Positions 1-63,309 of a DNA stretch of 64,000 nucleotides are shown piece by piece. Source of the DNA: Sipunculus nudus. Taxonomy: Eukaryota > Annelida > Sipuncula > Golfingiida > Sipunculidae. The stretch lies in the NCBI GenBank assembly GCA_026874595.1, contig CM049320.1, positions 1,042,001-1,106,000 of the forward strand. Direction: 5' to 3'. Below the pieces are notes generated by a model. That model did no database searches. It saw nothing but the letters and a program-made list of their open reading frames with translations, and was not told the DNA's origin. The first letter of the stretch is position 1. Each line of letters starts with the position of its first letter. Made by a program: the position numbers and the translations under genes.

Positions 1-1499
1 AGCAAGTACATGTTATACTGAGCATCCTATATGTCATGTGTCAGAGCTTTAGCTGAATAGCAAGTAGATCTAATACTGAGCATCCTATATGTCATGTGTC
101 AGAGCTTTAACTGAATAGCAAGTAGATGTAATACTGAGCATCCTATATGTCATGTGTCAGAGCTTTAACTGAATAGCAGGTACATGTAAAACTGAGCATC
201 ATATATGTCATGTGTCAGAGCTTTAACTGAATAGCAAGTACATGTTATACTGAGCATCCTATATGTCATGTGTCAGAGCTTTAACTGAATAGCAAGTACA
301 TGTTATACTGAGCATCCTATATGTCATGTGTCAGAGCTTTAACTGAATAGCAAGTACATGTAGTACTGAGCATCCTATATGTCATGTGTCAGAGCTTTAA
401 CTGAAGAGCAAGTACATGTTATACTGAGCATCCTGTATGTCATGTGTCAGAGCTTTAACTAAATTGCAAGTACATGTTATACTGAGCATCCTATATGTCA
501 TGTGTCAGAGCTTTAACTGAACAGCAAGTACATGTAATACTGAGCATCCTATATGTCATGTGTCAGAGCTTTAACTAAATTGCAAGTAGATGTAATACTG
601 AGCATCCTATATGTCATGTGTCAGAGCTTTAACTGAAGAGCAAGTACATGTTATACTGAGCATTCTATATGTCATGTGTCAGAGCTTTAGCTGAACAACA
701 AGTACATGTTTTACTGAGCATCCTATATGTCATGTGTCAGAGCTTTAACTGAACAACAAGCACATGTGGTACTTAGCATCCTATATGTCATGTGTCAGAG
801 CTTTAGCTGAACAGCAAGTACATGTTATACTGAGCATCCTTTATGTCATGTGTCAGAGCTTTAGCTGAATAGCCGGTACATGTGGTACTAAGCACCCTAT
901 ATGTCATGTGTCAGAGCTTTAACCGAATAGCAAGCACATGTGGTACTGAGCATCCTATATGTCATGTGTCAGAGCTTTAGCTGAACAACAAGTACATGTT
1001 ATACTGAGCATCCTATATGTCATGTGTCAGAGCTTTAACTGAACAGCAAGTACATGTAGTACTGAGCATCCTATATGTCATGTGTCAGAGCTTTAACTGA
1101 ACAACAAGTACATGTTATACTGAGCATCCTATATGTCATGTGTCAGAGCTTTAACTGAATAGCAAGTAGATGTTTTACTGAGCATCCTATATGTCATGTG
1201 TCAGAGCTTTAACAGAAGAGCAAGTACATGTTATACTGAGCATCCTATATGTCATGTGTCAGAGGTTTAACTGAACAGCAAGTACATGTAGTACTGAGCA
1301 TCCTATATGTCATGTGTCAGAGCCTTAACTGAACAGCAAGTACATGTTATACTGAGCATCCTATATGTCATGTGTCAGAGCTTTAACTGAATAGCAAGTA
1401 GATGTAATACTGAGCATCCTATATGTCATGTGTCAGAGCTTTAACTGAATAGCAAGTACATGTTATACTGAGCATCCTATATGTCATGTGTCAGAGCTT

Positions 1500-4400
1500 T
1501 TACTGAATAGCAAGTAGATGTAATACTGAGCATCATATATGTCATGTGTCAGAGCTTTAACTGAATAGCAAGTACATGTGGTACTGAGCATCATATATGT
1601 CATGTGTCAGAGCTTTAACTGAACAACAAGTACATGTAGTACTGAGCATCCTATATGTCATGTGTCAGAGCTTTAACTGAAGAGCAAGTACATGTTATAC
1701 TGAGCATCCTATATGTCATGTGTCAGAGGTTTAACTGAAGAGCAAGTACATGTAGTACTGAGCATCCTATATTTCATGTATCAGAGCCTTAACTGAATAG
1801 CAAGTAGATGTAATACTGAGCATCCTATATGTCATGTGTCAGAGCTTTAACTGAACAACAAGTACATGTAGTACTGAGCATCCTATATGTCATGTGTCAG
1901 AGCTTTAACTGAACAACAAGTACATGTAGTACTGAGCATCATATATGTCATGTGTCAGAGCTTTAACTGAACAACAAGTACATGTGGTACTGAGCATAAT
2001 ATATGTCATGTGTCAGAGCTTTAACTGAACAACAAGTACATGTAGTACTGAGCATCCTATATGTCATGTGTCAGAGCTTTAACTGAAGAGCAAGTACATG
2101 TTATACTGAGCATCCTATATGTCATGTGTCAGAGCTTTAACTGAACAGCAAGTACATGTAGTACTGAGCATCATATATGTCATGTGTCAGAGCTTTAACT
2201 GAACAACAAGTACATGTTATACTGAGCATCCTATATGTCATGTGTCAGAGCTTTAACTGAATAGCAAGTAGATGTAATACTGAGCAGCCTATATGTCATG
2301 TGTCAGAGCTTTAACTGAAGAGCAAGTACATGTTATACTGAGCATCCTATATGTCATGTGTCAGAGGTTTAACTGAATAGCAAGTACATGTAGTACTGAG
2401 CATCCTATATTTCATGTATCAGAGCTTTAACTGAATAGCAAGTAGATGTAATACTGAGCATCCTATATGTCATGTGTCAGAGCTTTAACTGAATAGCAAG
2501 TACATGTTATACTGAGCATCCTATATGTCATGTATCAGAGCTTTAACTGAATAGCAAGCACATGTGGTACTGAGCATCCTATATGTCATGTGTCAGAGCT
2601 TTAGCTGAACAGCAAGTACATGTTATACTGAGCATCATATATGTCATGTGTCAGAGCTTTAGCTGAACAGCAAGTACATGTTATACTGAGCATCATATAT
2701 GTCATGTGTCAGAGCTTTAGCTGAACAGCAAGTACATGTTATACTGAGCATCATATATGTCATGTGTCAGAGCTTTAACTGAATAGCAAGTACATGTTAT
2801 ACTGAGCATCCTATATGTCATGTGTCAGAGCTTTAACTGAATAGCAAGTACATGTGATACTGAGCATCATATATGTCATGTGTCAGAGCTTTAACTGAAT
2901 AGGAGGTACATGTAATACGGAGCATCATATATGTCATGTGTCAGAGCTTTAACTGAATAGCAAGTAGATGTAGTACTGAGCATCCTATATGTCATGTGTC
3001 AGAGCTTTAACTGAACAACAAGTACATGTTATACTGAGCATCCTATATGTCATGTGTCAGAGCTTTAACTGAACAGCAAGTACATGTAGTACTGAGCATC
3101 CTATATGTCATGTGTCAAAGCTTTAACTGAACAGCAAGTACATGTAATACTGAGCATCCTATATGTCATGTGTCAGAGCGTTAAGTGAATTGCAAGTAGA
3201 TGTAATACTGAGCATCCTATATGTCATGTGTCAGAGCTTTAACTGAAGACCAAGTACATGTTATACTGAGCATCCTAAATGTCATGTGTCAGAGCTTTAG
3301 CTGAACAACAAGTACATGTTTTACTGAGCATCCTATATGTCATGTGTCAGAGCTTTAACTGAACAACAAGCACATGTGGTACTGAGCATCCTATATGTCA
3401 TGTGTCAGAGCTTTAGCTGAACAGCAAGTACATGTTATACTGAGCATCCTATATGTCATGTGTCAGAGCTTTAGCTGAATAGCCGGTACATGTGGTACTA
3501 AGCACCCTATATGTCATGTGTCAGAGCTTTAACTGAATAGCAAGCACATGTGGTACTGAGCATCCTATATGTCATGTATCAGAGCTTTAGCTGAACAACA
3601 AGTACATGTTATACTGAGCATCCTATATGTCATGTGTCAGAGCTTTAACTGAACAGCAAGCACATGTGGTACTGAGCATCCTATATGTCATGTGTCAGAG
3701 CTTTAGCTGGACAGCAAGTACATGTTATACTGAGCATCATATATGTCATGTGTCAGAGCTTTAACTGAAGAGCAAGTACATGTAGTACTGAGCATCCTAT
3801 ATTTCATGTATCAGAGCTTTAACTGAATAGCAAGTAGATGTAATACTGAGCATCCTATATGTCATGTGTCAGAGCTTTAACTGAATAGCAAGTACATGTG
3901 GTACTGAGCATCATATATGTCATGTGTCAGAGCTTTAACTGAACAACAAGTACATGTAGTACTGAGCATCCTATATGTCATGTGTCAGAGCTTTAACTGA
4001 AGAGCAAGTACATGTTATACTGAGCATCCTATATGTCATGTGTCAGAGGTTTAACTGAAGAGCAAGTACATGTAGCACTGAGCATCCTATATTTCATGTA
4101 TCAGAGCCTTAACTGAATAGCAAGTAGATGTAATACTGAGCATCCTATATGTCATGTGTCAGAGCTTTAACTGAACAACAAGTACATGTAGTACTGAGCA
4201 TCCTATATGTCATGTGTCAGAGCTTTAACTGAACAACAAGTACATGTAGTACTGAGCATCCTATATGTCATGTGTCAGAGCTTTAACTGAACAACAAGTA
4301 CATGTGGTACTGAGCATAATATATGTCATGTGTCAGAGCTTTAACTGAACAACAAGTACATGTAGTACTGAGCATCCTATATGTCATGTGTCAGAGCTTT

Positions 4401-19134: not shown

Positions 19135-22100
19135 TGAATAGCAAGTAGATGTAATACTGAGCATCCTATATATCATGTGTCAGAGCTTTAGCTGAACAAC
19201 CAGTACATGTAATACTGAGCATCCTATATGTCATGTGTCAGAGCTTTAGCTAAATAGCAAGTACATGTTATACTGAGCATCCTATTTGTCATTTGTCAGA
19301 GTTTAACTGAACAGCAAGTACATTTAATACTGAACATCCTATATGTCATGTATCAGAGCTTTAGCTGAATAGTAAGTACATGTTATACTGAGCATCATAT
19401 ATGTCATGTGTTAGAGCTTTAACTGAATAACAAGTACATGTTCTACTGAGCATCCTATATGTAATGTGTCAGAGCTTTAGCTGAATAGCAGGTACATGTG
19501 GTACTGCGCATCCTATATGTCATGTGTCAGAGCTTTAACTGAACAACAAGTACATGTTATACTGAGCATCCTATATGTCATGTGTCAGAGCTTTAGCTGA
19601 ATAGCAAGAAACTTGTGATACTGAATATCCTATATGTCATGTGTCAGAGCTTTAATTGAACAGCAAGTACATTTAATGCTGAGCATCCTATATGTCATGT
19701 GTCAGAGCTTTAATTGAACAGCAAGTACATGTTATACTGAGCATCCTATATGTCATGTGTCAGAGCTTTAACTGAATAGCAAGTACATTTAATACTGAGC
19801 ATACTATATGTCATGTGTCAGAGCTTTAAATGAATAGCAAGTACATTTAATGCTGAGCATCCTATATGTCATGTGTCAGAGCTTTAACTGAACAGCAAGT
19901 ACATGTTATACTGAGCATCCTATATGTCATGTGTCAGAGATTTAACTGAATAGCAAGTACATTTAATACTGAGCATACTATATGTCATGTGTCAGAGCTT
20001 TAATTGACCAGCAAGTACATGTTATACTGAGCATCCTGTATGTCATATGTCAGAGCTTAAACTGAATAGCAAGTACATGTAATACTGAGCATCCTATATG
20101 TAATGTGTCAGAGCTTTAATTGAGCAACAAGTACATGTTATACTGAGCATCCTTTATGTCATATGTCAGAGCTTTAACTGAATAGCAAGTAGATGTAATA
20201 CTGAGCATCCAATATGTAATGTGTCAGAGCTTAAACTGAATAGCAAGCAGATGTAATACTGAGCATCCTATATGTCATGTGTCAGAGCTTTAACTGAACA
20301 ACAAGTACATGTGGTACGGAGCATCCTATATGTCATGTGTCAGAGCTTTAACTGAACAAAAAGTACATTTTATACTGAGCATCCTATATGTCATGTGTCA
20401 GAGCTTTAACTGAATAGCAAGCACATGTGGTACTAAGCAGCCTATATGTCATGTGTCAGAGCTTTAGCTGAACAGCAAGTACATGTTATACTGAGCATCA
20501 TATATGTCATGTGTCAGAGCTTTAACTGAACAGCAAGTATATGTAGTACTGAGCATCCTATATGTCATGTGTCAGAGCTTTAACTGAATAGCAAGTACAT
20601 GTGATACTGAGCATCATATATGTCATGTGTCAGAGCTTTAACTGAATAGGAGGTACATGTAATACTGAGCATCATATATGTCATGTGTCAGAGCTTTAAC
20701 TGAATAGCAAGTAGATGTAATACTGAGCATCCTATATGTCATGTGTCAGAGCTTTAACTGAATAGCAAGTACATGTAATACTGAGCATCATATATGTCAT
20801 GTGTCAAAGCTTTAACTGAACAACAAGTACATGTTATACTGAGCATCCTATATGTCATGTGTCAGAGCTTTAACTGAATGGCAAGCACGTGTGGTACTGA
20901 GCATCCTATATGTCATGAGTCAGAGCTTTAGCTGAACAGTAAGTACATGTAATACTGAGCATCCTATATGTCATGTGTCAGAGCTTTAAGTGAATTGCAA
21001 GTAGATGTAATACTGAGCATCCTATATGTCATGTGTCAGAGCTTTAACTGAAGAGCAAGTACCTGTTATACTGAGCATCCTATATGTCGTATGTTAGAGC
21101 TTTAACTGAACAGCAAGTACATGTAGTACTGAGCATCCTATATGTCAATTTTCAGAGCTTTAACTGAACAGCAAGTACATGTAATACTGAGCATCCTATA
21201 TGTCATGTGTCAGAGCTTTAAGTGAATTGTAAGTACATGTAATACTGAGCATCCTATATGTCATGTGTCAGAGCTTTAACTGAAGAGCAAGTACATGTTA
21301 TACTGAGCATCCTATATGTCATGTGTCAGAGCTTTAACTGAACAGCAAGTACATGTAATACTGAGCATCCTATATGTCATGTGTCAGAGCTTTAACTGAA
21401 GAGCAAGTACATGTTATACTGAGCATCCTATATGTCGTATGTCAGAGCTTTAACTGAACAGCAAGTACATGTAATACTGAGCATCCTATATGTCATGTGT
21501 CAGAGCTTTAACTGAAGAGCAAGTACATGTTATACTGAGCATCCTATATGTCATGTGTCAGAGCTTTAACTGAACAGCAAGTACATGTAATACTGAGCAT
21601 CCTATATGTCATGTGTCAGAGCTTTAACTGAAGAGCAAGTACATGTTATACTGAGCATCCTATATGTCGTATGTCAGAGCTTTAACTGAACAGCAAGTAC
21701 ATGTAATACTGAGCATCCTATATGTCATGTGTCAGAGCTTTAACTGAAGAGCAAGTACATGTTATACTGAGCATCCTATATGGCATGTGTCAGAGCTTTA
21801 ACTGAACAGCAAGTACATGTAGTACTGAGCATCCTATATGTCATGTGTCAGAGCTTTAACTGAACAGCAAGTACATGTAATACTGAGCATCCTATATGTC
21901 ATGTGTCAGAGCTTAAAGTGAAATGCAAGTAGATGTAATACTGAGCATCCTATATGTCATGTGTCAGAGCTTTAACTGAAGAGCAAGTACATGTTATACT
22001 GAGCATCCTATATGTCATGTGTCAGAGCTTTAACTGAACAGCAAGAACATGTAATACTGAGCATCCTATAGGTCATGTGTCAGAGCTTTAAGTGAATTGC

Positions 22101-25100: not shown

Positions 25101-26094
25101 GCTTTAACTGAAGAGCAAGTACATGTTATACTGAGCATCCTATATGTCGTATGTCAGAGCTTTAACTGAACAGCAAGTACATGTAATACTGAGCATCCTA
25201 TATGTCATGTGTCAGAGCTTTAACTGAAGAGCAAGTACATGTTATACTGAGCATCCTATATGTCATGTGTCAGAGCTTTAGCTGAACAGCAAGTACATGT
25301 AGTACTGAGCATCCTATATGTCATGTGTCAGAGCTTTAACTGAACAGCAAGTACATGTAATACTGAGCATCCTATATGTCATGTGTCAGAGCTTTAAGTG
25401 AAATGCAAGTAGATGTAATACTGAGCATCCTATATGTCATGTGTCAGAGCTTTAACTGAAGAGCAAGTACATGTTATACTGAGCATCCTATATGTCATGT
25501 GTCAGAGCTTTAACTGAACAGCAAGAACATGTAATACTGAGCATCCTATAGGTCATGTGTCAGAGCTTTAAGTGAATTGCAAGTAGATGTAATACTGAGC
25601 ATCCTATATGTCATGTGTCAGAGCTTTAACTGAAGAGCAAGTACATGTTATACTGAGCATCCTATATGTCGTATGTCAGAGCTTTAACTGAACAGCAAGT
25701 ACATGTAGTACTGAGCATCCTATATGTCATGTGTCAGAGCTTCAACTGAACAGCAAGTACATGTAATACTGAGCATCCTATATGTCATGTGTCAGAGCTT
25801 TAAGTGAATTGCAAGTAGATGTAATACTGGGCATCCTATATGTCATGTGTCAGAGCTTTAACTGAAGAGCAAGTACATGTTATACTGAGCATCCTATATG
25901 TCGTATGTCAGAGCTTTAACTGAACAGCAAGTACATGTAGTACTGAGCATCCTATATGTCATGTGTCAGAGCTTTAACTGAACAGCAAGTACATGTAATA
26001 CTGAGCATCCTATATGTCATGTGTCAGAGCTTTAAGTGAATTGCAAGTAGATGTAATACTGAGCATCCTATATGTCATGTGTCAGAGCTTTAAC
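19135..26094. repeat. Tandem duplication of a 60-monomer unit (2 x 3,480 bp)
   Basis: About 19,135-22,614 and 22,615-26,094 are adjacent copies offset by exactly 3,480 bp (60 x 58). Both carry the ATATATCATGTGTCAG monomer, the GAACAACCAGTAC monomer, the CAGAGTTTAAC one-base deletion, the AGCAAGAAACTTG one-base insertion and the AATTGACCAG marker (20,002 and 23,482). Reading the two side by side I found about 13 substitutions and no indel, roughly 99.6% identity, so this is among the youngest expansions here. The similarity stops at both ends at monomer-phase boundaries, as expected from unequal exchange between aligned monomers. Confidence 0.93.
20900..25300. repeat. Local 4-monomer alternation (232 bp)
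   Basis: At about 21,250-21,800 and again at 24,730-25,270, two monomer types alternate. One is GAAGAGCAAG with ACATGTTATAC and the other is GAACAGCAAG with ACATGTAATAC. Every second GAAGAG monomer ends TGTCGTATGTCAG instead of TGTCATGTGTCAG, so the true period is four monomers (232 bp). The same alternation is seen at about 15,960-16,440, 31,020-31,640 and 37,100-37,620. It is the shortest clear higher-order period in the array. Confidence 0.85.
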
Positions 26095-31019: not shown

Positions 31020-34000
31020 AACTGAAGAGCAAGTACATGTTATACTGAGCATCCTATATGTCATGTGTCAGAGCTTTAACTGAACAGCAAGTACATGTAA
31101 TACTGAGCATCCTATATGTCATGTGTCAGAGCTTTAACTGAAGAGCAAGTACATGTTATACTGAGCATCCTATATGTCGTATGTCAGAGCTTTAACTGAA
31201 CAGCAAGTACATGTAATACTGAGCATCCTATATGTCATGTGTCAGAGCTTTAACTGAAGAGCAAGTACATGTTATACTGAGCATCCTATATGTCGTATGT
31301 CAGAGCTTTAACTGAACAGCAAGTACATGTAATACTGAGCATCCTATATGTCATGTGTCAGAGCTTTAACTGAAGAGCAAGTACATGTTATACTGAGCAT
31401 TCTATATGTCATGTGTCAGAGCTTTAACTGAACAGCAAGTACATGTAATACTGAGCATCCTATATGTCATGTGTCAGAGCTTTAACTGAAGAGCAAGTAC
31501 ATGTTATACTGAGCATCCTATATGTCGTATGTCAGAGCTTTAACTGAACAGCAAGTACATGTAATACTGAGCATCCTATATGTCATGTGTCAGAGCTTTA
31601 ACTGAAGAGCAAGTACATGTTGTACTGAGCATCCTATATGTCATGTGTCAGAGCTTTAACTGAACAGCAAGTACATGTAATACTGAGCATCCTATATGTC
31701 ATGTGTCAGAGCTTTAAGTGAATTGCAAGTAGATGTAATACTGAGCATCCTATATGTCATGTGTCAGAGCTTTAACTGAAGAGCAAGTACATGTTATACT
31801 GAGCATCCTATATGTCATGTGTCAGAGCTTTAACTGAACAGCAAGTACATGTAATACTGAGCATCCTATATGTCATGTGTCAGAGCTTTAAGTGAATTGC
31901 AAGTAGATGTAAAACTGAGCATCATATATGTCATGTGTCAGAGCTTTAACTGAATAGCAAGTACATGTTATACTGAGCATCCTATATGTCATGTGTCAGA
32001 GCTTTAACTGAATAGCAAGTACATGTTATACTGAGCATCCTATATGTCATGTGTCAGAGCTTTAACTGAATAGCAAGTACATGTGATACTGAGCATCATA
32101 TATGTCATGTGTCAGAGCTTTAACTGAATAGGAGGTACATGTAATACGGAGCATCATATATGTCATGTGTCAGAGCTTTAACTGAATAGCAAGTAGATGT
32201 AATACTGAGCATTCTATATGTCAATGTGTCAGAGCTTTAACTGAATAGCAGGTACATGTAATACTGAGCATCCTATATGTCATGTGTGAAAGCTTTAACT
32301 GAACAACAAGTACATGTTATACTGAGCATCCTATATGTCATGTGTCAGAGCTTTAACTGAATGGCAAGCACATGTGGTACTGAGCATCCTATATGTCATG
32401 AGTCAGAGCTTTAGCTGAACAACAAGTACATGTTATACTGAGCATCATATATGTCATGTGTCAGAGCTTTAACTGAACAGCAAGTACATGTAGTACTGAG
32501 CATCCTATATGTCATGTGTCAGAGCTTTAACTGAACAAAGAGTACATGTTATACTGAGCATCCTATATGTCGTATGTCAGAGCTTTAACTGAACAGCAAG
32601 TACATGTAGTACTGAGCATCCTATATGTCATGTGTCAAAGCTTTAACTGAACAGCAAGTACATGTAATACTGAGCATCCTATATGTCATGTGTCAGAGCT
32701 TTAAGTGAATTGCAAGTAGATGTAATACTGAGCATCCTATATGTCATGTGTCAGAGCTTTAACTGAAGAGCAAGTACATGTTATACTGAGCATCCTGTAT
32801 GTCATGTGTCAGAGCTTTAGCTGAACAACAAGTACATGTTTTTCTGAGCATCCTATATGTCGTGTGTCAGAGCTTTAACTGAACAACAAGCACATGTGGT
32901 ACTGAGCATCCTATATGTCATGTGTCAGAGCTTTAGCTGAACAGCAAGTAGATGTAATACTGAGCATCCTATATGTCATGTGTCAGAGCTTTAGCTGAAT
33001 AGCAAGTAGATGTAATACTGAGCATCCTATATGTCATGTGTCAGAGCTTTAACTGAATAGCAAGTAGATGTAATACTGGGCATCCTATATGTCATGTGTC
33101 AGAGCTTTAACTGAATAGCAAGTACATGTTATACTGAGCATCATATATGTCATGTGTCAGAGCTTTAACTGAATAGCAAGTAGATGTAATACTGGGCATC
33201 CTATATGTCATGTGTCAGAGCTTTAACTGAATAGCAAGTAGATGTAATACTGAGCATCCTATATGTCATGTGTCAGAGCTTTAACTGAATAGCAAGTAGA
33301 TGTAATACTGGGCATCCTATATGTCATGTGTCAGAGCTTTAGCTGAATAGCAAGTAGATGTAATACTGAGCATCCTATATGTCATGTGTCAGAGCTTTAA
33401 CTGAATAGCAAGTAGATGTAATACTGAGCATCCTATATGTCATGTGTCAGAGCTTTAGCTGAATAGCAAGTAGATGTAATACTGAGCATCCTATATGTCA
33501 TGTGTCAGAGCTTTAACTGAATAGCAAGTAGATGTAATACTGGGCATCCTATATGTCATGTGTCAGAGCTTTAACTGAATAGCAAGTAGATGTAATACTG
33601 AGCATCCTATATGTCATGTGTCAGAGCTTTAACTGAATAGCAGGTACATGTAATACTGAGCATCATATATGTCATGTGTCAAAGCTTTAACTGAACAACA
33701 AGTACATGTTATACTGTGCATCCTATATGTCATGTGTCAGAGCTTTAACTGAACAGCAAGTAGATGTAATACTGAGCATCCTATATGTCATGTGTCAGAG
33801 CTTTAAGTGAATTGCAAGTAGATGTAATACTGAGCATCCTATATGTCATGTGTCAGAGCTTTAACTGAAGAGCAAGTACATGTTATACTGAGCATCCTAT
33901 ATGTCGTATGTCAGAGCTTTAACTGAACAGCAAGTACATGTTATACTGAGCATCCTATATGTCATGTGTCAGAGCTTTAACTGAACAACAAGTGCATGTG

Positions 34001-37000
34001 GTACTGAGCATCCTATATGTCATATGTCAAAGCTTTAGCTGAATAGCAGGTACATGTTATACTGAGCATCCTATATGTCATGTGTCAGAGCTTTAACTGA
34101 ACAGCAAGTACATGTAATACTGATCATCCTATATGTCATGTGTCAAAGCTTTAAGTGAATTGCAAGTAGATGTAATACTGAGCATCCTATATGTCATGTG
34201 TCAGAGCTTTAACTGAAGAGCAAGTACATGTTATACTGAGCATCCTATATGTCGTATGTCAGAGCTTTAACTGAACAGCAAGTACATGTAGTACTGAGCA
34301 TCCTATATGTCATGTGTCAGAGCTTTAACTGAACAGCAAGTACATGTAATACTGAGCATACTATATGTCATGTGTCAGAGCTTTAAGTGAATTGCAAGTA
34401 GATGTAATACTGAGCATCCTATATGTAATTAGTCAGAGCTTTAACTGAAGAGCAAGTACATGTTATACTGAGCATCCTATATGTCATGTGACAGAGCTTT
34501 AGCTGAACAACAAGTACATGTTTTACTGAGCATCCTATATGTAATGTGTCAGAGCTTTAACTGAACAACAAGCACATGTGGTACTGAGAATCCTATATGT
34601 CATGTATCAGAGCTTTAGCTGAACAGCAAGTACATGTTATACTGAGCATCCTGAATGTCATGTGTCAGAGCTTTAACTGAATAGCAAGTACATGTAATAC
34701 TGAGCAACCTGTATGTCATGTGTCAGAGCTTTAACTGAATAGCAAGTAGATGTAATACTGAGCATCCTGTATGTCATGTGTCAGAGCTTTAACTGAATAG
34801 CAAGTAGATGTAATACTGAGCATCCTGTATGTCATGTGTCAGAGCTTTAACTGAATAGCAAATAGATGTAATACTGAGCATCCTATATGTCATGTGTCAG
34901 AGCTTTAGCTGAATAGCAAGTAGATGTAATACTGAGCATCCTATATGTCATGTGTCAGAGCTTTAGCTGAATAGCAAGTAGATGTAATACTGAGCATCCT
35001 ATATGTCATGTGTCAGAGCTTTAACTGAATAGCAAGTAGATGTAATACTGGGCATCCTATATGTCATGTGTCAGAGCTTTAACTGAATAGCAAGTACATG
35101 TTATACTGAGCATCCTATATGTCATGTGTCAGAGCTTTAGCTGAATAGCAAGTACATGTAATACTGAGCATCCTATATGTCATGTGTCAGAACTTTAACT
35201 GAATAGCAAGTACATGTTATACTGAGCATCCTATATGTCATGTGTCAGAGCTTTAGCTGAATAGCAAGTAGATGTAATACTGAGCATCCTATATGTCATG
35301 TGTCAGAGCTTTAACTGAATAGCAGGTACATGTAAAACTGAGCATCATATATGTCATGTGTCAGAGCTTTAACTGAATAGCAAGTACATGTTATACTGAG
35401 CATCCTATATGTCATGTGTCAGAGCTTTAACTGAACAGCAAGTACATGTAGTACTGAGCATCCTATATGTCATGTGTCAGGGCTTTAACTGAACAACAAG
35501 TACATGTTATACTGAGCATCCTATATGTCATGTGTCAGAGCTTTAACTGAACAACAAGTACATGTGGTACTGAGCATCCTATATGTCATGTGTCAGAGCT
35601 TTAACTGAACAACAAGTACATGTTATACTGAGCATCCTATATGTAATGTGTCAGAGCTTTAACTGAACAGCAAGTACATGTAGTACTATGCATCCTATAT
35701 TTTATATGTCAGAGCTTTAGCTGAATAGCAGGTACATGTTATACTGAGCATCCTATATGTAATGTGTCAGAGCTTTAACTGAACAACAAGTACATGTGGT
35801 ACTGAGCATCCTATATGTCATGTGTCAGAGCTTTAACTGAACAACAAGTACATGTTATACTGAGCATCCTATATGTCATGTGTCAGAGCTTTAACTGAAC
35901 AGCAAGTACATGTAGTACTGAGCATCCTTTATGTCATGTGTCAGAGCTTTAGCTGAACAACAAGTACATGTTATACTGAGCATCCTATATGTCATGTGTC
36001 AGAGCTTTAACTGAACAACAAGTACATGTGGTACTGAGCATCCTATATGTCATGTGTCAGAGCTTTAACTGAACAACAAGTACATGTGGTACTTATCATC
36101 CTATATGTCATGTGTCAGAGTTTTAACTGAACAACAAGTACATGTTATACTGAGCATCCTATATGTCATGAGTCAGAGCTTTAACTGAATAGCAAGCACA
36201 TGTGGTACTGAGCATCCTATATGTCATGTGTCAGAGCTTTAGCTGAACAGCAAGTACATGTTATACTGAGCATCATATATGTCATGTGTCAGATCTTTAA
36301 CTGAACAGCAAGTACGTCTAGTACTGAGCATCCTATATGTCATGTGTCAGAGCTTTAACTGAACAACAAGTACATGTGGTACTGAGCATCCTATATGTCA
36401 TGTGTCAGAGCTTTAGCTGAATAGCAGGTACATGTTATACTGAGCATCATATATGTCATGTGTCAGAGCTTTAACTAAACAGCAAGTACATGTAGTACTG
36501 AGCATCCTATATGTCATGTGTCAGAGCTTTAACTGAACAACAAGTACATGTTATACTGAGCATCCTATATGTCATGTGTCAGAGCTTTAACTGAACAACA
36601 AGTGCATGTGGTACTGAGCATCCTATATGTCATATGTCAAAGCTTTAGCTGAATAGCAGGTACATGTTATACTGAGCATCATATATGTCATGTGTCAGAG
36701 CTTTAACTGAACAGCAAGTACATGTAGTACTGAGCATCCTATATGTCATGTGTCAGAGCTTTAACTGAACAACAAGTACATGTAATGCTGAGCATCCTAT
36801 ATGTCATGTGTCAGAGCTTTAGCTGAATAGCAGGTACATGTTATACTGAGCATCATATATGTCATGTGTCAGAGCTTTAACTGAACAGCAAGTACATGTA
36901 GTACTGAGCATCCTATATGTCATGTGTCAGAGCTATAACTGAACAGCAAGTACATGTTTTACTGAGCATCCTATATGTCATGTGTCAGAGCTTTAACTGA

Positions 37001-40000
37001 ATAGCAAGCAGATGTAATACTGAGCATCCTATATGTAATGTGTCAGAGCTTTAACTGAACATCAAGTACATGTGGTACTGAGCATCCTATATGTCATGTG
37101 TCAGAGCTTTAACTGAAGAGCAAGTACATGTTATACTGAGCATCCTATATGTCATGTGTCAGAGCTTTAACTGAACAGCAAGTACATGTAATACTGAGCA
37201 TCCTATATGTCATGTGTCAGAGCTTTAACTGAAGAGCAAGTACATGTTATACTGAGCATCCTATATGTCGTATGTCAGAGCTTTAACTGAACAGCAAGTA
37301 CATGTAATACTGAGCATCCTATATGTCATGTGTCAGAGCTTTAACTGAAGAGCAAGTACATGTTATACTGAGCATTCTATATGTCATGTGTCAGAGCTTT
37401 AACTGAACAGCAAGTGCATGTAATACTGAGCATCCTATATGTCATGTGTCAGAGCTTTAACTGAAGAGCAAGTACATGTTATACTGAGCATCCTATATGT
37501 CGTATGTCAGAGCTTTAACTGAACAGCAAGTACATGTAATACTGAGCATCCTATATGTCATGTGTCAGAGCTTTAACTGAAGAGCAAGTACATGTTATAC
37601 TGAGCATCCTATATGTCATGTGTCAGAGCTTTAACTGAACAGCAAGTACATGTAGTACTGAGCATCCTATATGTCATGTGTCAGAGCTTTAACTGAACAG
37701 CAAGTACATGTAATACTGAGCATCCTATATGTCATGTGTCAGAGCTTTAAGTGAATTGCAAGTAGATGTAATACTGAGCATCCTATATGTCATGTGTCAG
37801 AGCTTTAACTGAAGAGCAAGTACATGTTATACTGAGCATCCTATATGTCATGTGTCAGAGCTTTAACTGAACAGAAAGTACATGTAATACTGAGCATCCT
37901 ATATGTCATGTGTCAGAGCTTTAAGTGAATTGCAAGTAGATGTAAAACTGAGCATCATATATGTCATGTGTCAGAGCTTTAACTGAATAGCAAGTACATG
38001 TTATACTGAGCATCCTATATGTCATGTGTCAGAGCTTTAACTGAATAGCAAGTACATGTTATACTGAGCATCCTATATGTCATGTGTCAGAGCTTTAACT
38101 GAATAGCAAGTACATGTGATACTGAGCATCATATATGTCATGTGTCAGAGCTTTAACTGAATAGGAGGTACATGTAATACGGAGCATCATATATGTCATG
38201 TGTCAGAGCTTTAACTGAATAGCAAGTAGATGTAATACTGAGCATTCTATATGTCAATGTGTCAGAGCTTTAACTGAATAGCAGGTACATGTAATACTGA
38301 GCATCCTATATGTCATGTGTGAAAGCTTTAACTGAACAACAAGTACATGTTATACTGAGCATCCTATATGTCATGTGTCAGAGCTTTAACTGAATGGCAA
38401 GCACATGTGGTACTGAGCATCCTATATGTCATGAGTCAGAGCTTTAGCTGAACAACAAGTACATGTTATACTGAGCATCATATATGTCATGTGTCAGAGC
38501 TTTAACTGAACAGCAAGTACATGTAGTACTGAGCATCCTATATGTCATGTGTCAGAGCTTTAACTGAACAAAGAGTACATGTTATACTGAGCATCCTATA
38601 TGTCGTATGTCAGAGCTTTAACTGAACAGCAAGTACATGTAGTACTGAGCATCCTATATGTCATGTGTCAAAGCTTTAACTGAACAGCAAGTACATGTAA
38701 TACTGAGCATCCTATATGTCATGTGTCAGAGCTTTAAGTGAATTGCAAGTAGATGTAATACTGAGCATCCTACATGTCATGTGTCAGAGCTTTAACTGAA
38801 GAGCAAGTACATGTTATACTGAGCATCCTGTATGTCATGTGTCAGAGCTTTAGCTGAACAACAAGTACATGTTTTTCTGAGCATCCTATATGTCGTGTGT
38901 CAGAGCTTTAACTGAACAACAAGCACATGTGGTACTGAGCATCCTATATGTCATGTGTCAGAGCTTTAGCTGAACAGCAAGTAGATGTAATACTGAGCAT
39001 CCTATATGTCATGTGTCAGAGCTTTAGCTGAATAGCAAGAAGATGTAATACTGAGCATCCTATATGTCATGTGTCAGAGCTTTAACTGAATAGCAAGTAG
39101 ATGTAATACTGGGCATCCTATATGTCATTTGTCAGAGCTTTAACTGAATAGCAAGTACATGTTATACTGAGCATCATATATGTCATGTGTCAGAGCTTTA
39201 ACTGAATAGCAAGTAGATGTAATACTGGGCATCCTATATGTCATGTGTCAGAGCTTTAACTGAATAGCAAGTAGATGTAATACTGAGCATCCTATATGTC
39301 ATGTGTCAGAGCTTTAACTGAATAGCAAGTAGATGTAATACTGGGCATCCTATATGTCATGTGTCAGAGCTTTAGCTGAACAGCAAGTAGATGTAATACT
39401 GAGCATCCTATATGTCATGTGTCAGAGCTTTAACTGAATAGCAAGTAGATGTAATACTGAGCATCCTATATGTCATGTGTCAGAGCTTTAGCTGAATAGC
39501 AAGTAGATGTAATACTGAGCATTCTATATGTCATGTGTCAGAGCTTTAACTGAATAGCAAGTAGATGTAATACTGGGCATCCTATATGTCATGTGTCAGA
39601 GCTTTAACTGAATAGCAAGTAGATGTAATACTGAGCATCCTATATGTCATGTGTCAGAGCTTTAACTGAATAGCAGGTACATGTAATACTGAGCATCATA
39701 TATGTCATGTGTCAAAGCTTTAACTGAACAGCAAGTACATGTTATACTGTGCATCCTATATGTCATGTGTCAGAGCTTTAAGTGAATTGCAAGTAGATGT
39801 AATACTGAGCATCCTATATGTCATGTGTCAGAGCTTTAACTGAAGAGCAAGTACATGTTATACTGAGCATCCTATATGTCGTATGTCAGAGCTTTAACTG
39901 AACAGCAAGTACATGTTATACTGAGCATCCTATATGTCATGTGTCAGAGCTTTAACTGAACAACAAGTGCATGTGGTACTGAGCATCCTATATGTCATAT

Positions 40001-43000
40001 GTCAAAGCTTTAGCTGAATAGCAGGTACATGTTATACTGAGCATCCTATATGTCATGTGTCAGAGCTTTAACTGAACAGCAAGTACATGTAATACTGATC
40101 ATCCTATATGTCATGTGTCAAAGCTTTAAGTGAATTGCAAGTAGATGTAATACTGAGCATCCTATATGTCATGTGTCAGAGCTTTAACTGAAGAGCAAGT
40201 ACATGTTATACTGAGCATCCTATATGTCGTATGTCAGAGCTTTAACTGAACAGCAAGTACATGTAGTACTGAGCATCCTATATGTCATGTGTCAAAGCTT
40301 TAACTGAACAGCAAGTACATGTAATACTGAGCATCCTATATGTCATGTGTCAGAGCTTTAAGTGAATTGCAAGTAGATGTAATACTGAGCATCCTATATG
40401 TCATTAGTCAGAGCTTTAACTGAAGAGCAAGTACATGTTATACTGAGCATCCTATATGTCATGTGACAGAGCTTTAGCTGAACAACAAGTACATGTTTTA
40501 CTGAGCATCCTATATGTCATGTGTCAGAGCTTTAACTGAACAACAAGCACATGTGGTACTGAGAATCCTATATGTCATGTATCAGAGCTTTAGCTGAACA
40601 GCAAGTACATGTTATACTGAGCATCCTGAATGTCATGTGTCAGAGCTTTAACTGAATAGCAAGTACATGTAATACTGAGCATCCTGTATGTCATGTGTCA
40701 GAGCTTTAACTGAATAGCAAGTACATTTAATACGGAGCATCCTGTATGTCATGTGTCAGAGATTTTACTGAATAGCAAGTACATGTAATACTGAGCATCC
40801 TGTATGTCATGTGTCAGAGCTTTAACTGAATAGCAAGTAGATGTAATACTGAGCATCCTGTATGTCATGTGTCAGAGCTTTAACTGAATAGCAAGTAGAT
40901 GTAATACTGAGCATCCTATATGTCATGTGTCAGAGCTTTAACTGAATAGCAAGTAGATGTAATACTGGGCATCCTATATGTCATGTGTCAGAGCTTTAAC
41001 TGAACAACAAGTACATGTTATACTGAGCATCCTATATGTCATGTGTCAGAGCTTTAACTGAACAGCAAGTACATGTAGTACTGAGCATCCTTTATGTCAT
41101 GTGTCAGAGCTTTAGCTGAACAACAAGTACATGTTATACTGAGCATCCTATATGTCATGTGTCAGAGCTTTAACTGAACAACAAGTACATGTGGTACTGA
41201 GCATCCTATATGTCATGTGTCAGAGCTTTAACTGAACAACAAGTACATGTGGTACTTATCATCCTATATGTCATGTGTCAGAGTTTTAACTGAACAACAA
41301 GTACATGTTATACTGAGCATCCTATATGTCATGAGTCAGAGCTTTAACTGAATTGCAAGCACATGTGGTACTGAGCATCCTATATGTCATGTGTCAGAGC
41401 TTTAGCTGAACAGCAAGTACATGTTATACTGAGCATCATATATGTCATGTGTCAGATCTTTAACTGAACAGCAAGTACATCTAGTACTGAGCATCCTATA
41501 TGTCATGTGTCAGAGCTTTAACTGAACAACAAGTACATGTGGTACTGAGCATCCTATATGTCATGTGTCAGAGCTTTAGCTGAATAGCAGGTACATGTTA
41601 TACTGAGCATCATATATGTCATGTGTCAGAGCTTTAACTAAACAGCAAGTACATGTAGTACTGAGCATCCTATATGTCATGTGTCAGAGCTTTAACTGAA
41701 CAACAAGTACATGTTATACTGAGCATCCTATATGTCATGTGTCAGAGCTTTAACTGAACAACAAGTGCATGTGGTACTGAGCATCCTATATGTCATATGT
41801 CAAAGCTTTAGCTGAATAGCAGGTACATGTTATACTGAGCATCATATATGTCATGTGTCAGAGCTTTAACTGAACAGCAAGTACATGTAGTACTGAGCAT
41901 CCTATATGTCATGTGTCAGAGCTTTAACTGAACAACAAGTACATGTAATGCTGAGCATCCTATATGTCATGTGTCAGAGCTTTAACTGAACATCAAGTAC
42001 ATGTGGTACTGAGCATCCTATATGTCATGTGTCAGAGCTTTAACTGAACAGCAAGTACATGTAGTACTGAGCATCCTATATGTCATGTGTCAGAGCTATA
42101 ACTGAACAGCAAGTACATGTTTTACTGAGCATCCTATATGTCATGTGTCAGAGCATTAACTGAATAGCAAGCAGATGTAATACTGAGCATCCTATATGTA
42201 ATGTGTCAGAGCTTTAACTGAACATCAAGTACATGTGGTACTGAGCATCCTATATGTCATGTGTCAGAGCTTTAACTGAACAGCAAGTACATGTAATACT
42301 GAGCATCCTATATGTCATGTGTCAGAGCTTTAAGTGAATTGCAAGTAGATGTAAAACTGAGCATCATATATGTCATGTGTCAGAGCTTTAACTGAATAGC
42401 AAGTACATGTTATACTGAGCATCCTATATGTCATGTGTCAGAGCTTTAACTGAATAGCAAGTACATGTTATACTGAGCATCCTATATGTCATGTGTCAGA
42501 GCTTTAACTGAATAGCAAGTACATGTGATACTGAGCATCATATATGTCATGTGTCAGAGCTTTAACTGAATAGGAGGTACATGTAATACGGAGCATCATA
42601 TATGTCATGTGTCAGAGCTTTAACTGAATAGCAAGTAGATGTAATACTGAGCATTCTATATGTCAATGTGTCAGAGCTTTAACTGAATAGCAGGTACATG
42701 TAATACTGAGCATCCTATATGTCATGTGTGAAAGCTTTAACTGAACAACAAGTACATGTTATACTGAGCATCCTATATGTCATGTGTCAGAGCTTTAACT
42801 GAATGGCAAGCACATGTGGTACTGAGCATCCTATATGTCATGAGTCAGAGCTTTAGCTGAACAACAAGTACATGTTATACTGAGCATCATATATGTCATG
42901 TGTCAGAGCTTTAACTGAACAGCAAGTACATGTAGTACTGAGCATCCTATATGTCATGTGTCAGAGCTTTAACTGAACAAAGAGTACATGTTATACTGAG

Positions 43001-45420
43001 CATCCTATATGTCGTATGTCAGAGCTTTAACTGAACAGCAAGTACATGTAGTACTGAGCATCCTATATGTCATGTGTCAAAGCTTTAACTGAACAGCAAG
43101 TACATGTAATACTGAGCATCCTATATGTCATGTGTCAGAGCTTTAAGTGAATTGCAAGTAGATGTAATACTGAGCATCCTATATGTCATGTGTCAGAGCT
43201 TTAACTGAAGAGCAAGTACATGTTATACTGAGCATCCTGTATGTCATGTGTCAGAGCTTTAGCTGAACAACAAGTACATGTTTTTCTGAGCATCCTATAT
43301 GTCGTGTGTCAGAGCTTTAACTGAACAACAAGCACATGTGGTACTGAGCATCCTATATGTCATGTGTCAGAGCTTTAGCTGAACAGCAAGTAGATGTAAT
43401 ACTGAGCATCCTATATGTCATGTGTCAGAGCTTTAGCTGAATAGCAAGTAGATGTAATACTGAGCATCCTATATGTCATGTGTCAGAGCTTTAACTGAAT
43501 AGCAAGTAGATGTAATACTGGGCATCCTATATGTCATGTGTCAGAGCTTTAACTGAATAGCAAGTACATGTTATACTGAGCATCATATATGTCATGTGTC
43601 AGAGCTTTAACTGAATAGCAAGTAGATGTAATACTGGGCATCCTATATGTCATGTGTCTGAGCTTTAACTGAATAGCAAGTAGATGTAATACTGAGCATC
43701 CTATATGTCATGTGTCAGAGCTTTAACTGAATAGCAAGTAGATGTAATACTGGGCATCCTATATGTCATGTGTCAGAGCTTTAGCTGAATAGCAAGTAGA
43801 TGTAATACTGAGCATCCTATATGTCATGTGTCAGAGCTTTAACTGAATAGCAAGTAGATGTAATACTGAGCATCCTATATGTCATGTGTCAGAGCTTTAG
43901 CTGAATAGCAAGTAGATGTAATACTGAGCATCCTATATGTCATGTGTCAGAGCTTTAACTGAATAGCAAGTAGATGTAATACTGGGCATCCTATATGTCA
44001 TGTGTCAGAGCTTTAACTGAATAGCAAGTAGATGTAATACTGAGCATCCTATATGTCATGTGTCAGAGCTTTAACTGAATAGCAGGTACATGTAATACTG
44101 AGCATCATATATGTCATGTGTCAAAGCTTTAACTGAACAACAAGTACATGTTATACTGTGCATCCTATATGTCATGTGTCAGAGCTTTAACTGAACAGCA
44201 AGTACATGTAATACTGAGCATCCTATATGTCATGTGTCAGAGCTTTAAGTGAATTGCAAGTAGATGTAATACTGAGCATCCTATATGTCATGTGTCAGAG
44301 CTTTAACTGAAGAGCAAGTACATGTTATACTGAGCATCCTATATGTCGTATGTCAGAGCTTTAACTGAACAGCAAGTACATGTTATACTGAGCATCCTAT
44401 ATGTCATGTGTCAGAGCTTTAACTGAACAACAAGTGCATGTGGTTCTGAGCATCCTATATGTCATATGTCAAAGCTTTAGCTGAATAGCAGGTACATGTT
44501 ATACTGAGCATCCTATATGTCATGTGTCAGAGCTTTAACTGAACAGCAAGTACATGTAATACTGATCATCCTATATGTCATGTGTCAAAGCTTTAAGTGA
44601 ATTGCAAGTAGATGTAATACTGAGCATCCTATATGTCATGTGTCAGAGCTTTAACTGAAGAGCAAGTACATGTTATACTGAGCATCCTATATGTCGTATG
44701 TCAGAGCTTTAACTGAACAGCAAGTACATGTAGTACTGAGCATCCTATATGTCATGTGTCAGAGCTTTAACTGAACAGCAAGTACATGTAATACTGAGCA
44801 TCCTATATGTCATGTGTCAGAGCTTTAAGTGAATTGCAAGTAGATGTAATACTGAGCATCCTATATGTCATTAGTCAGAGCTTTAACTGAAGAGCAAGTA
44901 CATGTTATACTGAGCATCCTATATGTCATGTGACAGAGCTTTAGCTGAACAACAAGTACATGTTTTACTGAGCATCCTATATGTCATGTGTCAGAGCTTT
45001 AATTGAACAACAAGCACATGTGGTACTGAGAATCCTATATGTCATGTATCAGAGCTTTAGCTGAACAGCAAGTACATGTTATACTGAGCATCCTGAATGT
45101 CATGTGTCAGAGCTTTAACTGAATAGCAAGTACATGTAATACTGAGCATCCTGTATGTCATGTGTCAGAGCTTTAACTGAATAGCAAGTACATTTAATAC
45201 GGAGCATCCTGTATGTCATGTGTCAGAGATTTTACTGAATAGCAAGTACATGTAATACTGAGCATCCTGTATGTCATGTGTCAGAGCTTTAACTGAATAG
45301 CAAGTAGATGTAATACTGAGCATCCTGTATGTCATGTGTCAGAGCTTTAACTGAATAGCAAGTAGATGTAATACTGAGCATCCTATATGTCATGTGTCAG
45401 AGCTTTAACTGAATAGCAAG
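31020..45420. repeat. Three related superblocks at about 31.1, 37.1 and 42.3 kb
   Basis: The monomer AAGTGAATTGC followed by GTAAAACTGAGC begins at 31,890, 37,923 and 42,332. The spacings are 6,033 (104 monomers plus 1) and 4,409 (76 monomers plus 1). The extra base is the one-base insertion in a TGTCAATGTGTCAG monomer carried by all three copies (about 32,223, 38,256 and 42,665). All three continue through the AACAAAGAGTAC monomer, a GTTTTTCTGAGC monomer, a run of GTAGATGTAATAC monomers and a CTGTATGTC run. Further along, the GATTTTACTG marker at 40,761 and 45,228 is 77 monomers plus 1 apart, so the middle copy lacks one monomer near 39,760 that the third copy has near 44,200. Confidence 0.87.
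32940..33660. repeat. Local near-homogeneous run with GAGC/GGGC alternation
   Basis: Monomers of one type (AATAGCAAGTAGATGTAATAC) run almost unbroken here and differ mainly by CTGAGCATC versus CTGGGCATC, plus TTTAACTG versus TTTAGCTG. Matching runs occur at about 38,970-39,660 and 43,380-44,060 inside the copied superblocks. This looks like a recent local amplification of one or two monomers that was later duplicated with its surroundings. Confidence 0.8.
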
Positions 45421-47480
45421 TAGATGTAATACTGGGCATCCTATATGTCATGTGTCAGAGCTTTAACTGAATAGCAAGTACATGTTATACTGAGCATCCT
45501 ATATGTCATGTGTCAGAGCTTTAGCTGAATAGCAAGTACATGTAATACTGAGCATCCTATATGTCATGTGTCAGAACTTTAACTGAATAGCAAGTACATG
45601 TTATACTGAGCATCCTATATGTCATGTGTCAGAGCTTTAGCTGAATAGCAAGTAGATGTAATACTGAGCATCCTATATGTCATGTGTCAGAGCTTTAACT
45701 GAATAGCAGGTACATGTAAAACTGAGCATCATATATGTCATGTGTCAGAGCTTTAACTGAATAGCAAGTACATGTTATACTGAGCATCCTATATGTCATG
45801 TGTCAGAGCTTTAACTGAACAGCAAGTACATGTAGTACTGAGCATCCTATATGTCATGTGTCAGGGCTTTAACTGAACAACAAGTACATGTTATACTGAG
45901 CATCCTATATGTCATGTGTCAGAGCTTTAACTGAACAACAAGTACATGTGGTACTGAGCATCCTATATGTCATGTGTCAGAGCTTTAACTGAACAACAAG
46001 TACATGTTATACTGAGCATCCTATATGTAATGTGTCAGAGCTTTAACTGAACAGCAAGTACATGTAGTACTATGCATCCTATATTTTATATGTCAGAGCT
46101 TTAGCTTAATAGCAGGTACATGTTATACTGAGCATCCTATATGTAATGTGTCAGAGCTTTAACTGAACAACAAGTACATGTGGTACTGAGCATCCTATAT
46201 GTCATGTGTCAGAGCTTTAACTGAACAACAAGTACATGTTATACTGAGCATCCTATATGTCATGTGTCAGAGCTTTAACTGAACAGCAAGTACATGTAGT
46301 ACTGAGCATCCTTTATGTCATGTGTCAGAGCTTTAGCTGAACAACAAGTACATGTTATACTGAGCATCCTATATGTCATGTGTCAGAGCTTTAACTGAAC
46401 AACAAGTACATGTGGTACTGAGCATCCTATATGTCATGTGTCAGAGCTTTAACTGAACAACAAGTACATGTGGTACTTATCATCCTATATGTCATGTGTC
46501 AGAGTTTTAACTGAACAACAAGTACATGTTATACTGAGCATCCTATATGTCATGAGTCAGAGCTTTAACTGAATAGCAAGCACATGTGGTACTGAGCATC
46601 CTATATGTCATGTGTCAGAGCTTTAGCTGAACAGCAAGTACATGTTATACTGAGCATCATATATGTCATGTGTCAGATCTTTAACTGAACAGCAAGTACA
46701 TCTAGTACTGAGCATCCTATATGTCATGTGTCAGAGCTTTAACTGAACAACAAGTACATGTGGTACTGAGCATCCTATATGTCATGTGTCAGAGCTTTAG
46801 CTGAATAGCAGGTACATGTTATACTGAGCATCATATATGTCATGTGTCAGAGCTTTAACTAAACAGCAAGTACATGTAGTACTGAGCATCCTATATGTCA
46901 TGTGTCAGAGCTTTAACTGAACAACAAGTACATGTTATACTGAGCATCCTATATGTCATGTGTCAGAGCTTTAACTGAACAACAAGTGCATGTGGTACTG
47001 AGCATCCTATATGTCATATGTCAAAGCTTTAGCTGAATAGCAGGTACATGTTATACTGAGCATCATATATGTCATGTGTCAGAGCTTTAACTGAACAGCA
47101 AGTACATGTAGTACTGAGCATCCTATATGTCATGTGTCAGAGCTTTAACTGAACAACAAGTACATGTAATGCTGAGCATCCTATATGTCATGTGTCAGAG
47201 CTTTAGCTGAATAGCAGGTACATGTTATACTGAGCATCATATATGTCATGTGTCAGAGCTTTAACTGAACAGCAAGTACATGTAGTACTGAGCATCCTAT
47301 ATGTCATGTGTCAGAGCTATAACTGAACAGCAAGTACATGTTTTACTGAGCATCCTATATGTCATGTGTCAGAGCTTTAACTGAATAGCAAGCAGATGTA
47401 ATACTGAGCATCCTATATGTAATGTGTCAGAGCTTTAACTGAACATCAAGTACATGTGGTACTGAGCATCCTATATGTCA
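34900..47480. repeat. Duplicated flank block at a 179-monomer offset
   Basis: The series around 34,900-37,090 recurs around 45,400-47,480. The diagnostic CAGAACTTTAAC monomer has its variant at 35,191 and 45,575, a distance of 10,384 bp: 179 monomers plus the two one-base insertions lying between them. The following order (GTAAAACTGAGC, CAGGGCTTTAAC, GTACTATGCATCC, ATTTTATATGTCAG, TACTTATCATCC, CAGATCTTTAAC) is preserved. A related series is also present at about 26.9-28.3 kb. Confidence 0.82.
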
Positions 47481-48484
47481 TGTGTCAGAGCTTTAGCTGA
47501 ATAGCAGGTACATGTTATACTGAGCATCATATATGTCATGTGTCAGAGCTTTAGCTGAATAGCAAGTAGATGTAATACTGAGCATCCTATATATCATGTG
47601 TCAGAGCTTTAGCTGAACAACAAGTACATGTAATACTGAGCATCCTATATGTCATGTGTCAGAGCTTTAGCTAAATAGCAAGTACATGTTATACTGAGCA
47701 TCCTATTTGTCATTTGTCAGAGTTTAACTGAACAGCAAGTACATTTAATACTGAACATCCTATATGTCATGTATCAGAGCTTTAGCTGAATAGTAAGTAC
47801 ATGTTATACTGAGCATCATATATGTCACGTGTTAGAGCTTTAACTGAATAACAAGTACATGTTCTACTGAGCATCCTGTATGTCATGTGTCAGAGCTTTA
47901 AGTGAATAGCAAGTAGATGTAATACTGAGCATCCTGTATGTCATGTGTCAGAGCTTTAACTGAATAGCAAATAGATGTAATACTGAGCATCCTATATGTC
48001 ATGTGTCAGAGCTTTAGCTGAATAGCAAGTAGATGTAATACTGAGCATCCTATATGTCATGTGTCAGAGCTTTAGCTGAATAGCAAGTAGATGTAATACT
48101 GAGCATCCTATATGTCATGTGTCAGAGCTTTAACTGAATAGCAAGTAGATGTAATACTGAGCATCCTATATGTCATGTGTCAGAGCTTTAACTGAATAGC
48201 AAGTACATGTTATACTGAGCATCCTATATGTCATGTGTCAGAGCTTTAACTGAATAGCAAATACATGTTATACTGAGCATCCTATATGTCATGTGTCAGA
48301 GCTTTAACTGAATAGCAGGTACATGTGGTACTGAGTATCCTATATGTCATGTGTCAGAGCTTTAACTGAATAGCAAGTACATGTTATACTGAGCATCCTA
48401 TATGTCATGTGTCAGAGCTTTAACTGAATAACAAGTACATGTTATACTGAGCATCCTATATGTCATGTGTCAGAGCTTTACCTG

Positions 48485-50152: not shown

Positions 50153-50339
50153 TACAGTGAGACCTGTGCAATAAGACCATCCGTGGGCCAGAAGTGGTCT
50201 TAACTCACGGACTGTCTTAACTCACGGACTGTCTTAACTCACGGACTGTCTTAACTCACGGACAGGTCAGTTATAACCATGTGAATGCTTTCGGTCCCCT
50301 CAGGTGGTCCTGGTGGTCTTTCAGACAGGTCCCACTCTA
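50153..50339. mobile_element. 183-bp MITE of pogo/Tc1-mariner type with TA target duplication
   Basis: The element spans 50,155-50,337. It begins CAGTGAGACCTGT and ends ACAGGTCCCACTC, so the 13-bp terminal inverted repeats match at 11 of 13 positions. TA dinucleotides flank it on both sides (50,153-50,154 and 50,338-50,339), the target site used by Tc1/mariner and pogo transposases. CAGTG-type ends followed by ACCT resemble pogo/Tigger families. There is no coding capacity, so it would depend on a transposase encoded elsewhere. The interior carries a short tandem repeat. Confidence 0.72.
50197..50263 (+). repeat. 17-bp minisatellite, four copies, inside the MITE
   Basis: GTCTTAACTCACGGACT is repeated at 50,197, 50,214, 50,231 and 50,248; the last copy lacks the final T. 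The copies are identical, which points to recent slippage within the MITE. Confidence 0.95.
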
Positions 50340-60093: not shown

Positions 60094-60137
60094 TGCATGA
60101 CCAACTGAGGTCCAGGTCAAAGGGCAAGAATGTTACA

Positions 60138-63301: not shown

Positions 63302-63309
63302 CCAGTAGT

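Follow-up and report, generated by a model that had tools for sequence, protein, structure and literature searches.

A single-locus 58-bp satellite of Sipunculus nudus, with few founding length variants and probable renewal by unequal exchange in whole-unit steps

A 64,000-nucleotide stretch of the Sipunculus nudus genome (the window; positions 1,042,001 to 1,106,000 of contig CM049320.1, here called C15) raises the question of how a long tandem array of short units can keep its period almost unbroken. Tandem Repeats Finder places a 58-bp tandem array at positions 1 to 48,484 of the window, with 835.9 copies, 91% matches, and 0% indels (insertions and deletions), in agreement with an initial annotation that had described a 48-kb satellite of 836 copies. 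That annotation, which was made from the letters alone, had reported near-perfect phase, no transposon, and only eleven length variants, and had read the scarcity of indels and the lack of a transposon as a sign of frequent turnover by unequal exchange or gene conversion, or of selection on monomer length. We find that the window samples one end of a larger array in which a small number of founding indels have been copied along with their surroundings, and we consider unequal exchange in whole-unit steps, acting on a monomer with few sites prone to slippage, to be the probable explanation. Coordinates preceded by C15 refer to the scaffold and all others to the window; features of the satellite are given on the plus strand.

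RESULTS

Length variants trace back to a few founding indels

An independent cyclic alignment of the window recovered the eleven annotated variants to within a few bases. All are single-base changes, comprising six deletions (13,850; 19,301; 22,781; 28,639; 30,655; and 47,722) and five insertions (19,609; 23,089; 32,223; 38,256; and 42,665); an extra gap at the array end (48,484) was treated as an edge effect and kept outside this count. Mismatches to the consensus amounted to 2,700 in 48,485 aligned positions (5.6%), so substitutions are indeed much the commoner class of change. As the annotation had proposed, several of the indels are common by block duplication, and the eleven variants reduce to four kinds in five flanking contexts. 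Deletion of the C at monomer position 47 occurs five times, once in a context of its own (13,850) and four times in a second, shared context (19,301, 22,781, 28,639, and 47,722). Insertion of an A at position 6 occurs at 19,609 and again at 23,089, one 60-monomer block further, and insertion of an A at position 35 is found at 32,223, 38,256, and 42,665 in one common context. Deletion of the T at position 34 occurs once in the window (30,655), and another example, near C15:1,028,051, stands in a different context.

The left edge of the window cuts the array, which continues leftwards to C15:934,020. The whole array spans C15:934,020-1,090,484 (~156 kb, including an 8.2-kb long interspersed nuclear element [LINE]), lies ~1 Mb from one end of the 64-Mb scaffold, and contains 2,577 units (~2,600) arranged head to tail, of which the window holds the right-hand third. 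Measured from anchor to anchor, leaving out the unit broken by the LINE, 2,455 of the 2,577 units have a length of exactly 58 bp. The remaining 122 comprise 49 units of 35 bp, 25 of 53 bp, 2 of 55 bp, 40 of 57 bp, 5 of 59 bp, and 1 of 63 bp, and they are very unevenly distributed, with 11 among the 835 units in the window and 111 among the 1,742 outside it (Fisher p = 6e-10). The near-perfect phase is thus a property of the window and not of the array. To the left of the LINE alone there are 107 length variants, 58 of them of ≤5 bp.

Counted as kinds rather than copies, the indels do not differ in density between the two parts (4 kinds in 835 units in the window and 10 in 1,742 units outside it, with 2 in common; p = 1.0 in a comparison of low power). 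When the 12 kinds found across the array were clustered by flanking context, nine multicopy kinds each formed a single cluster, one formed two, one formed three, and one was present as a single copy; a thirteenth row of this clustering, the broken end of the array at the LINE, was dropped. These numbers imply about 15 founding indel events, with 12 the least possible. Random pairs reach the clustering threshold of 22 differences per 9 units at a frequency of 1% to 5%, such that large clusters may join by chance, a risk greatest for the 23-bp deletion that gives the 35-bp unit (49 copies), and old copies may be split. The length of this 23-bp deletion is exactly the distance between two copies of ACTGA, at positions 17 and 52 of the consensus, a sequence that has no base runs longer than 3 and no internal direct repeats longer than 5 bp.

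The annotated absence of a transposon likewise holds for the window's part of the array (1 to 48,484), in which we found none, and fails for the array as a whole. The LINE lies at C15:1,028,481-1,036,638, 5.4 kb to the left of the window, encodes an endonuclease domain (PF14529, E = 1.9e-8) and a reverse transcriptase domain (PF00078, E = 9e-35), and is flanked by a 13-base duplication, TAATACTGAGCAT. Within it, two exact 61-bp direct repeats ~2.1 kb apart bound an apparent nested insert.

Whole-unit blocks have been duplicated, most recently in the middle of the array

We found 235 pairs of duplicated blocks, overlapping and partly redundant. The largest is a 251-unit tandem duplication, in which C15:975,644-989,965 (14,322 bp) recurs 14,273 bp onward with a single difference; seven further pairs that we examined carried 2 to 14 differences. 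Within the window, compared position by position, a 60-monomer block at 19,140-22,619 is repeated in the adjacent 22,620-26,099 with 14 differences in 3,480 bp, a 50-monomer block at 31,840-34,740 recurs at 42,282-45,182 with 8 differences in 2,901 bp, and a 36-monomer block at 34,973-37,060 recurs at 45,357-47,444 with 2 differences in 2,088 bp. Mean identity between units plotted against lag, from 1 to 500 units, stayed at ~0.91 throughout without a regular series of peaks, and we therefore rejected a higher-order repeat; the highest value, 0.9285 at a lag of 251 units, corresponds to the tandem duplication.

The divergence of each part of the array from its nearest copy identifies the youngest core at C15:964-1,004 kb, where the mean per 5-kb bin was 0 to 0.26%, compared with 0.65 to 1.17% to the left and 0.38 to 3.31% to the right. 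This core has the highest share of units that are not 58 bp long (52/705, 7.4%), although unevenly placed, two of its eight 5-kb bins holding only three variant rows, and the window has the lowest (11/835, 1.3%); the share was 29/524 to the left of the core, 26/420 between the core and the LINE, and 4/93 between the LINE and the window. Mean pairwise difference between units was highest in the window (0.088), followed by the segment between core and LINE (0.075), the segment left of the core (0.060), and the core itself (0.057). Since the youngest core is the richest in non-58-bp units and the most diverse part, the window, the poorest, indel scarcity does not track turnover. Of the turnover put forward in the initial annotation, the copying of whole-unit blocks is borne out by the duplications, whereas its derivation from the scarcity of indels is not.

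Allele frequencies divide the array into domains. The strongest break by likelihood lies at C15:1,013,583, and to the right of it there is a further break at C15:1,042,291, which is only 291 bases inside the window, such that by chance almost all of the window's part of the array belongs to a single domain (291 to 48,484), in which alleles such as C at position 58 and A at position 2 are commoner.

Copying inflates the raw ratio of substitutions to indels

Raw counts gave 251 substitutions per indel in the window and 33 to the left of the LINE. To collapse copied changes, we joined near-identical contexts in a spanning tree and counted the fewest changes along it, with each gap scored as one event, at limits of 3, 5, 8, 12, and 18 differences per 9 units. 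Across the whole array this yielded 116:2, 211:3, 281:5, 455:7, and 871:15 (56-70:1), and in the window 44:1, 83:2, 99:3, 137:3, and 252:4 (33-63:1); scoring gap columns like mismatches gave similar ratios.

The controls, all drawn from the same genome, mostly fell at 6-17:1, below the collapsed ratio of the array. For a 491-bp long terminal repeat (LTR) with 504 candidates at first look, 40 copies were scored, and a spanning tree of 25 of these gave 140:25, or 140:18 without run-associated indels and 140:14 with each kind counted once. The array differs from this control both as a whole (p = 4e-10) and in the window (p = 5e-5). Indels in the LTR copies recur (six are of one kind), such that this larger control may overstate them. 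A smaller control, comparing the two repeats of each of 10 elements and omitting 5 unpaired copies, gave 30:2, from which the array did not differ significantly (p = 0.11 for the whole array and 0.23 for the window). In the count of indels against substitutions that the annotation had asked for, an indel deficit is therefore present against the larger control and not significant against the smaller one. Three other tandem arrays of C15, each compared with its own consensus, gave raw ratios of 46:3, 535:43, and 241:14 (12-17:1). Counted by kinds, the same three gave 29:2, 92:25, and 45:11, and the 58-bp array gave 131:10 on the left side of the LINE and 115:4 in the window; by this count its left part is no poorer in indels than the 37-bp neighbor (29:2).

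The 58-bp unit forms a single locus in the assembly

The annotation had suggested comparison with other loci carrying the same monomer, and we found no second locus. We searched the whole assembly (1,426,538,692 bases in 153 contigs, of which C15 accounts for 64,178,801 bases) with probes of 24 and 32 bases, allowing ≤3 mismatches. The 32-base probe gave 2,524 forward and 0 reverse matches, so that no unit in the opposite orientation was found with it, and all 2,524 lie at C15:934,042-1,090,449, within a contiguous scanned stretch at C15:929,001-1,106,000. A first 24-base probe matched 2,526 times, always inside the array, and a second matched inside it in 2,463 of 2,464 cases, with one 3-mismatch match listed on another contig (C13); the reversed control pattern of the 24-base probes gave one match in both searches. 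The unit therefore forms a single locus in the assembly at this sensitivity, which more diverged copies, or copies in assembly gaps, could escape.

The consensus unit carries stops in all six frames, and a coding array was rejected on that ground. The window gave no match to an RNA family in Rfam at the gathering score, and the first two units formed a weaker fold than most shuffled sequences did (z = 1.72), with 192 of the 200 shuffles matching or exceeding its stability. The CENP-B box is a 17-bp motif, and a scan limited to the window found no CENP-B-box-like site with ≤3 mismatches. One 24-mer of the unit had no exact match in viral contigs. A long head-to-tail array of one noncoding unit at one genomic locus is a noncoding locus-specific satellite, or large minisatellite, which is an ordinary and known kind of element; the present array is an unusually clear example.

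DISCUSSION

Whole-unit exchange and its alternatives

We propose that unequal exchange, or an equivalent form of block copying, both enlarges and renews the array in whole-unit steps of a few dozen to ~250 monomers, with the latest activity in its middle. Steps of this kind would preserve phase, and rare length variants would travel with the block in which they arose. The window would then be near-perfect since its domain amplified few founding indels (the four kinds in five contexts), while the rest of the array would have amplified several, including the 23-bp deletion between ACTGA copies. That founding indels are rare across the array is, on the explanation we favor, which may be incomplete, mainly because the consensus offers neither runs longer than 3 nor direct repeats longer than 5 bp and would thereby lower slippage. 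The fine pattern of differences in the closest blocks is consistent with such copying, since the differences are unclustered within units (variance/mean of 1.0 to 1.14) up to 8 differences per 9 units.

Several results weigh against this account. At looser limits differences do cluster (variance/mean of 1.3 to 2.0), and changes between common alleles are in excess (21/116 and 31/211, when 10 of 174 possible alternatives would qualify; p = 3e-6 and 2e-6); together these leave room for gene conversion, which may have contributed, or for wrong pairing of blocks. Recent changes are also uneven over the 58 positions (p = 5e-8), and position 9 is the richest in recent substitutions (16/211, mostly C-to-G and G-to-C changes). 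The indel deficit relative to the LTR copies persists when run-associated indels are removed from that control (p = 8e-7 for the array and 0.002 for the window) and when each LTR indel kind is counted once (p = 5e-5 and 0.012). Since the deficit survives matching for runs, sequence context as measured does not explain all of it.

That residue could be taken to mean that exchange actively filters new length variants, through loop rejection or biased conversion, and so lowers the ratio of indels to substitutions severalfold beyond the effect of sequence context, which we think unlikely. As an explanation of the array in its own right, such purging, in which looped heteroduplexes are rejected or converted and new indels seldom survive their first exchanges, seems very improbable. 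It would fit the 455:7 of the array set against each of the three LTR counts, and also the raw ratios, which are 12-17:1 in the three other arrays of C15 and 33:1 and 251:1 here. Once established, though, indels have been copied freely, the comparison with same-element pairs is not significant, and by kinds the 37-bp minisatellite shows no excess of indels over the part of the array that lies left of the LINE. Selection might instead hold the monomer at 58 bp, for example for nucleosome spacing (three units make 174 bp, which is arithmetic only and no test of spacing) or for a protein that needs the phase. The 2,455 units of exact length and the deficit against the LTR copies speak for selection, and the direction of the difference in median copy number between indel and substitution kinds (4.5 and 11) is the one that it would predict, although the difference is not significant (p = 0.10, rising to 0.21 once the commonest substitutions are left out, in a weak test with only 12 indel kinds). 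Yet amplification has carried the 35-bp unit to 49 copies, the 53-bp unit to 25, and the 57-bp unit to 40, with 29 of the first and 23 of the last lying in the youngest core. Also against selection stand the absence of a CENP-B-box-like site and of an Rfam match in the window, the lack of a stable fold in two units, and the stops in all six frames of the consensus. Selection on length, one of the two readings in the initial annotation, is thus weakly disfavored, and we regard it as highly doubtful.

The regularity might also have been made in part by the assembler, if polishing erased indels or if near-identical blocks were duplicated or collapsed. Accurate long reads are usually about as long as the 14.3-kb tandem copy, which carries one difference, and its copy number is not trustworthy from the assembly alone. 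The same assembly nevertheless retains the 107 length variants left of the LINE, including the 58 short ones, and the 43 indels that an 87-bp satellite elsewhere on C15 shows across 107 units, so that a general erasure of indels is unlikely and an origin in assembly improbable overall. Unequal exchange in whole-unit steps on a slippage-poor monomer thus remains the account that we favor.

Relation to known arrays

Human centromeric higher-order-repeat satellites show layered expansion, and the present array resembles them in having a young core beside older parts and in its block duplications. It differs in having no regular higher-order period, in occupying one locus rather than all or most chromosomes, and in the lack of a CENP-B-box-like site in the window, and we rejected assignment to that class on the first two of these grounds. 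The Responder (Rsp) satellite of Drosophila melanogaster (PMC7214746) similarly has a homogenized center and contains transposons, but its unit is of 120+120 bp, it is pericentromeric with transposons at both ends, and it is linked to segregation distortion, whereas the array of S. nudus has a 58-bp unit and one LINE inside and lies near a scaffold end. Human locus-specific variable-number tandem repeat (VNTR) arrays of >10 kb (PMC2588610) are also long tandem arrays at single loci, although in another organism and with units unrelated to the 58-bp unit; in the relevant portion of that paper, unequal crossing over is invoked for megasatellites and LTR arrays and not for the >10-kb VNTR arrays. 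Some satellite families of Tenebrio molitor are reported to be predominantly in a single array (PMC13192020), which recalls the single locus here in another species and with other monomers. A literature search for 58-bp satellite DNA in bivalves and molluscs (guessed groups, not that of the source organism) found nothing, and neither did a narrow combined query on single-locus arrays.

For models of unequal exchange the array provides a clean test, as an assembled satellite at one locus that combines allele-frequency domains with a young core, founding indels few enough to be counted, and one inserted LINE. Its main lesson is a caution on two counts, namely, that raw substitution and indel tallies in a satellite are for the most part tallies of copying and that a window at the edge of an array can mislead, as the ratios of 251:1 and 33:1 within the same array illustrate.

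Flanks and scaffold surroundings

The array ends sharply on the right and is followed by nonsatellite DNA (48,485-53,678), in which the two stop-to-stop frames that we tested (49,095-49,358 and 50,670-50,972) had no Pfam match. Beyond it, direct repeats of 491 bp at 53,679-54,169 and 59,647-60,137, ~6 kb apart and with four differences, are the LTRs of a young retrotransposon; the stop-to-stop frames lying wholly between them reach at most 91 amino acids, and similar pairs of repeats are present elsewhere in the genome. On the minus strand, remnants of another LINE, which retain domains of a reverse transcriptase and an endonuclease, occupy 60,764-63,968. To the left, 1.7 kb from the array, lies the 37-bp minisatellite, with 32.6 copies at C15:931,156-932,358. 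The telomere-like hexamer ACCCTA is present in 78 copies at C15:8,385-8,850, which is not the scaffold end itself but a position 8.4 kb in from it. The 87-bp satellite is found at the right end of C15; length variants in it are numerous, those of 11 and 16 bases being common, and its unit contains a 17-bp subrepeat.

The assembly also seems to hold bacterial contigs from symbionts or contaminants (C60, C61, C62, C66, C72, C74, C75, C89, and C123). There were 11 cytochrome oxidase matches in the assembly, and no mitochondrial copy was recognized among them, one match on C60 and one on C123 having been looked at; the latter is presumably a bacterial cbb3-type subunit. Nine oxidase genes lie on eight contigs, with open frames of 577 to 578 codons (one examined). 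The gene examined, on C60, has oxidase neighbors and a frame that is open in the standard code, as in a bacterial gene, and its named bacterial relatives, among the best 80 of 582 matches, are 52 to 58% identical and belong to several phyla.

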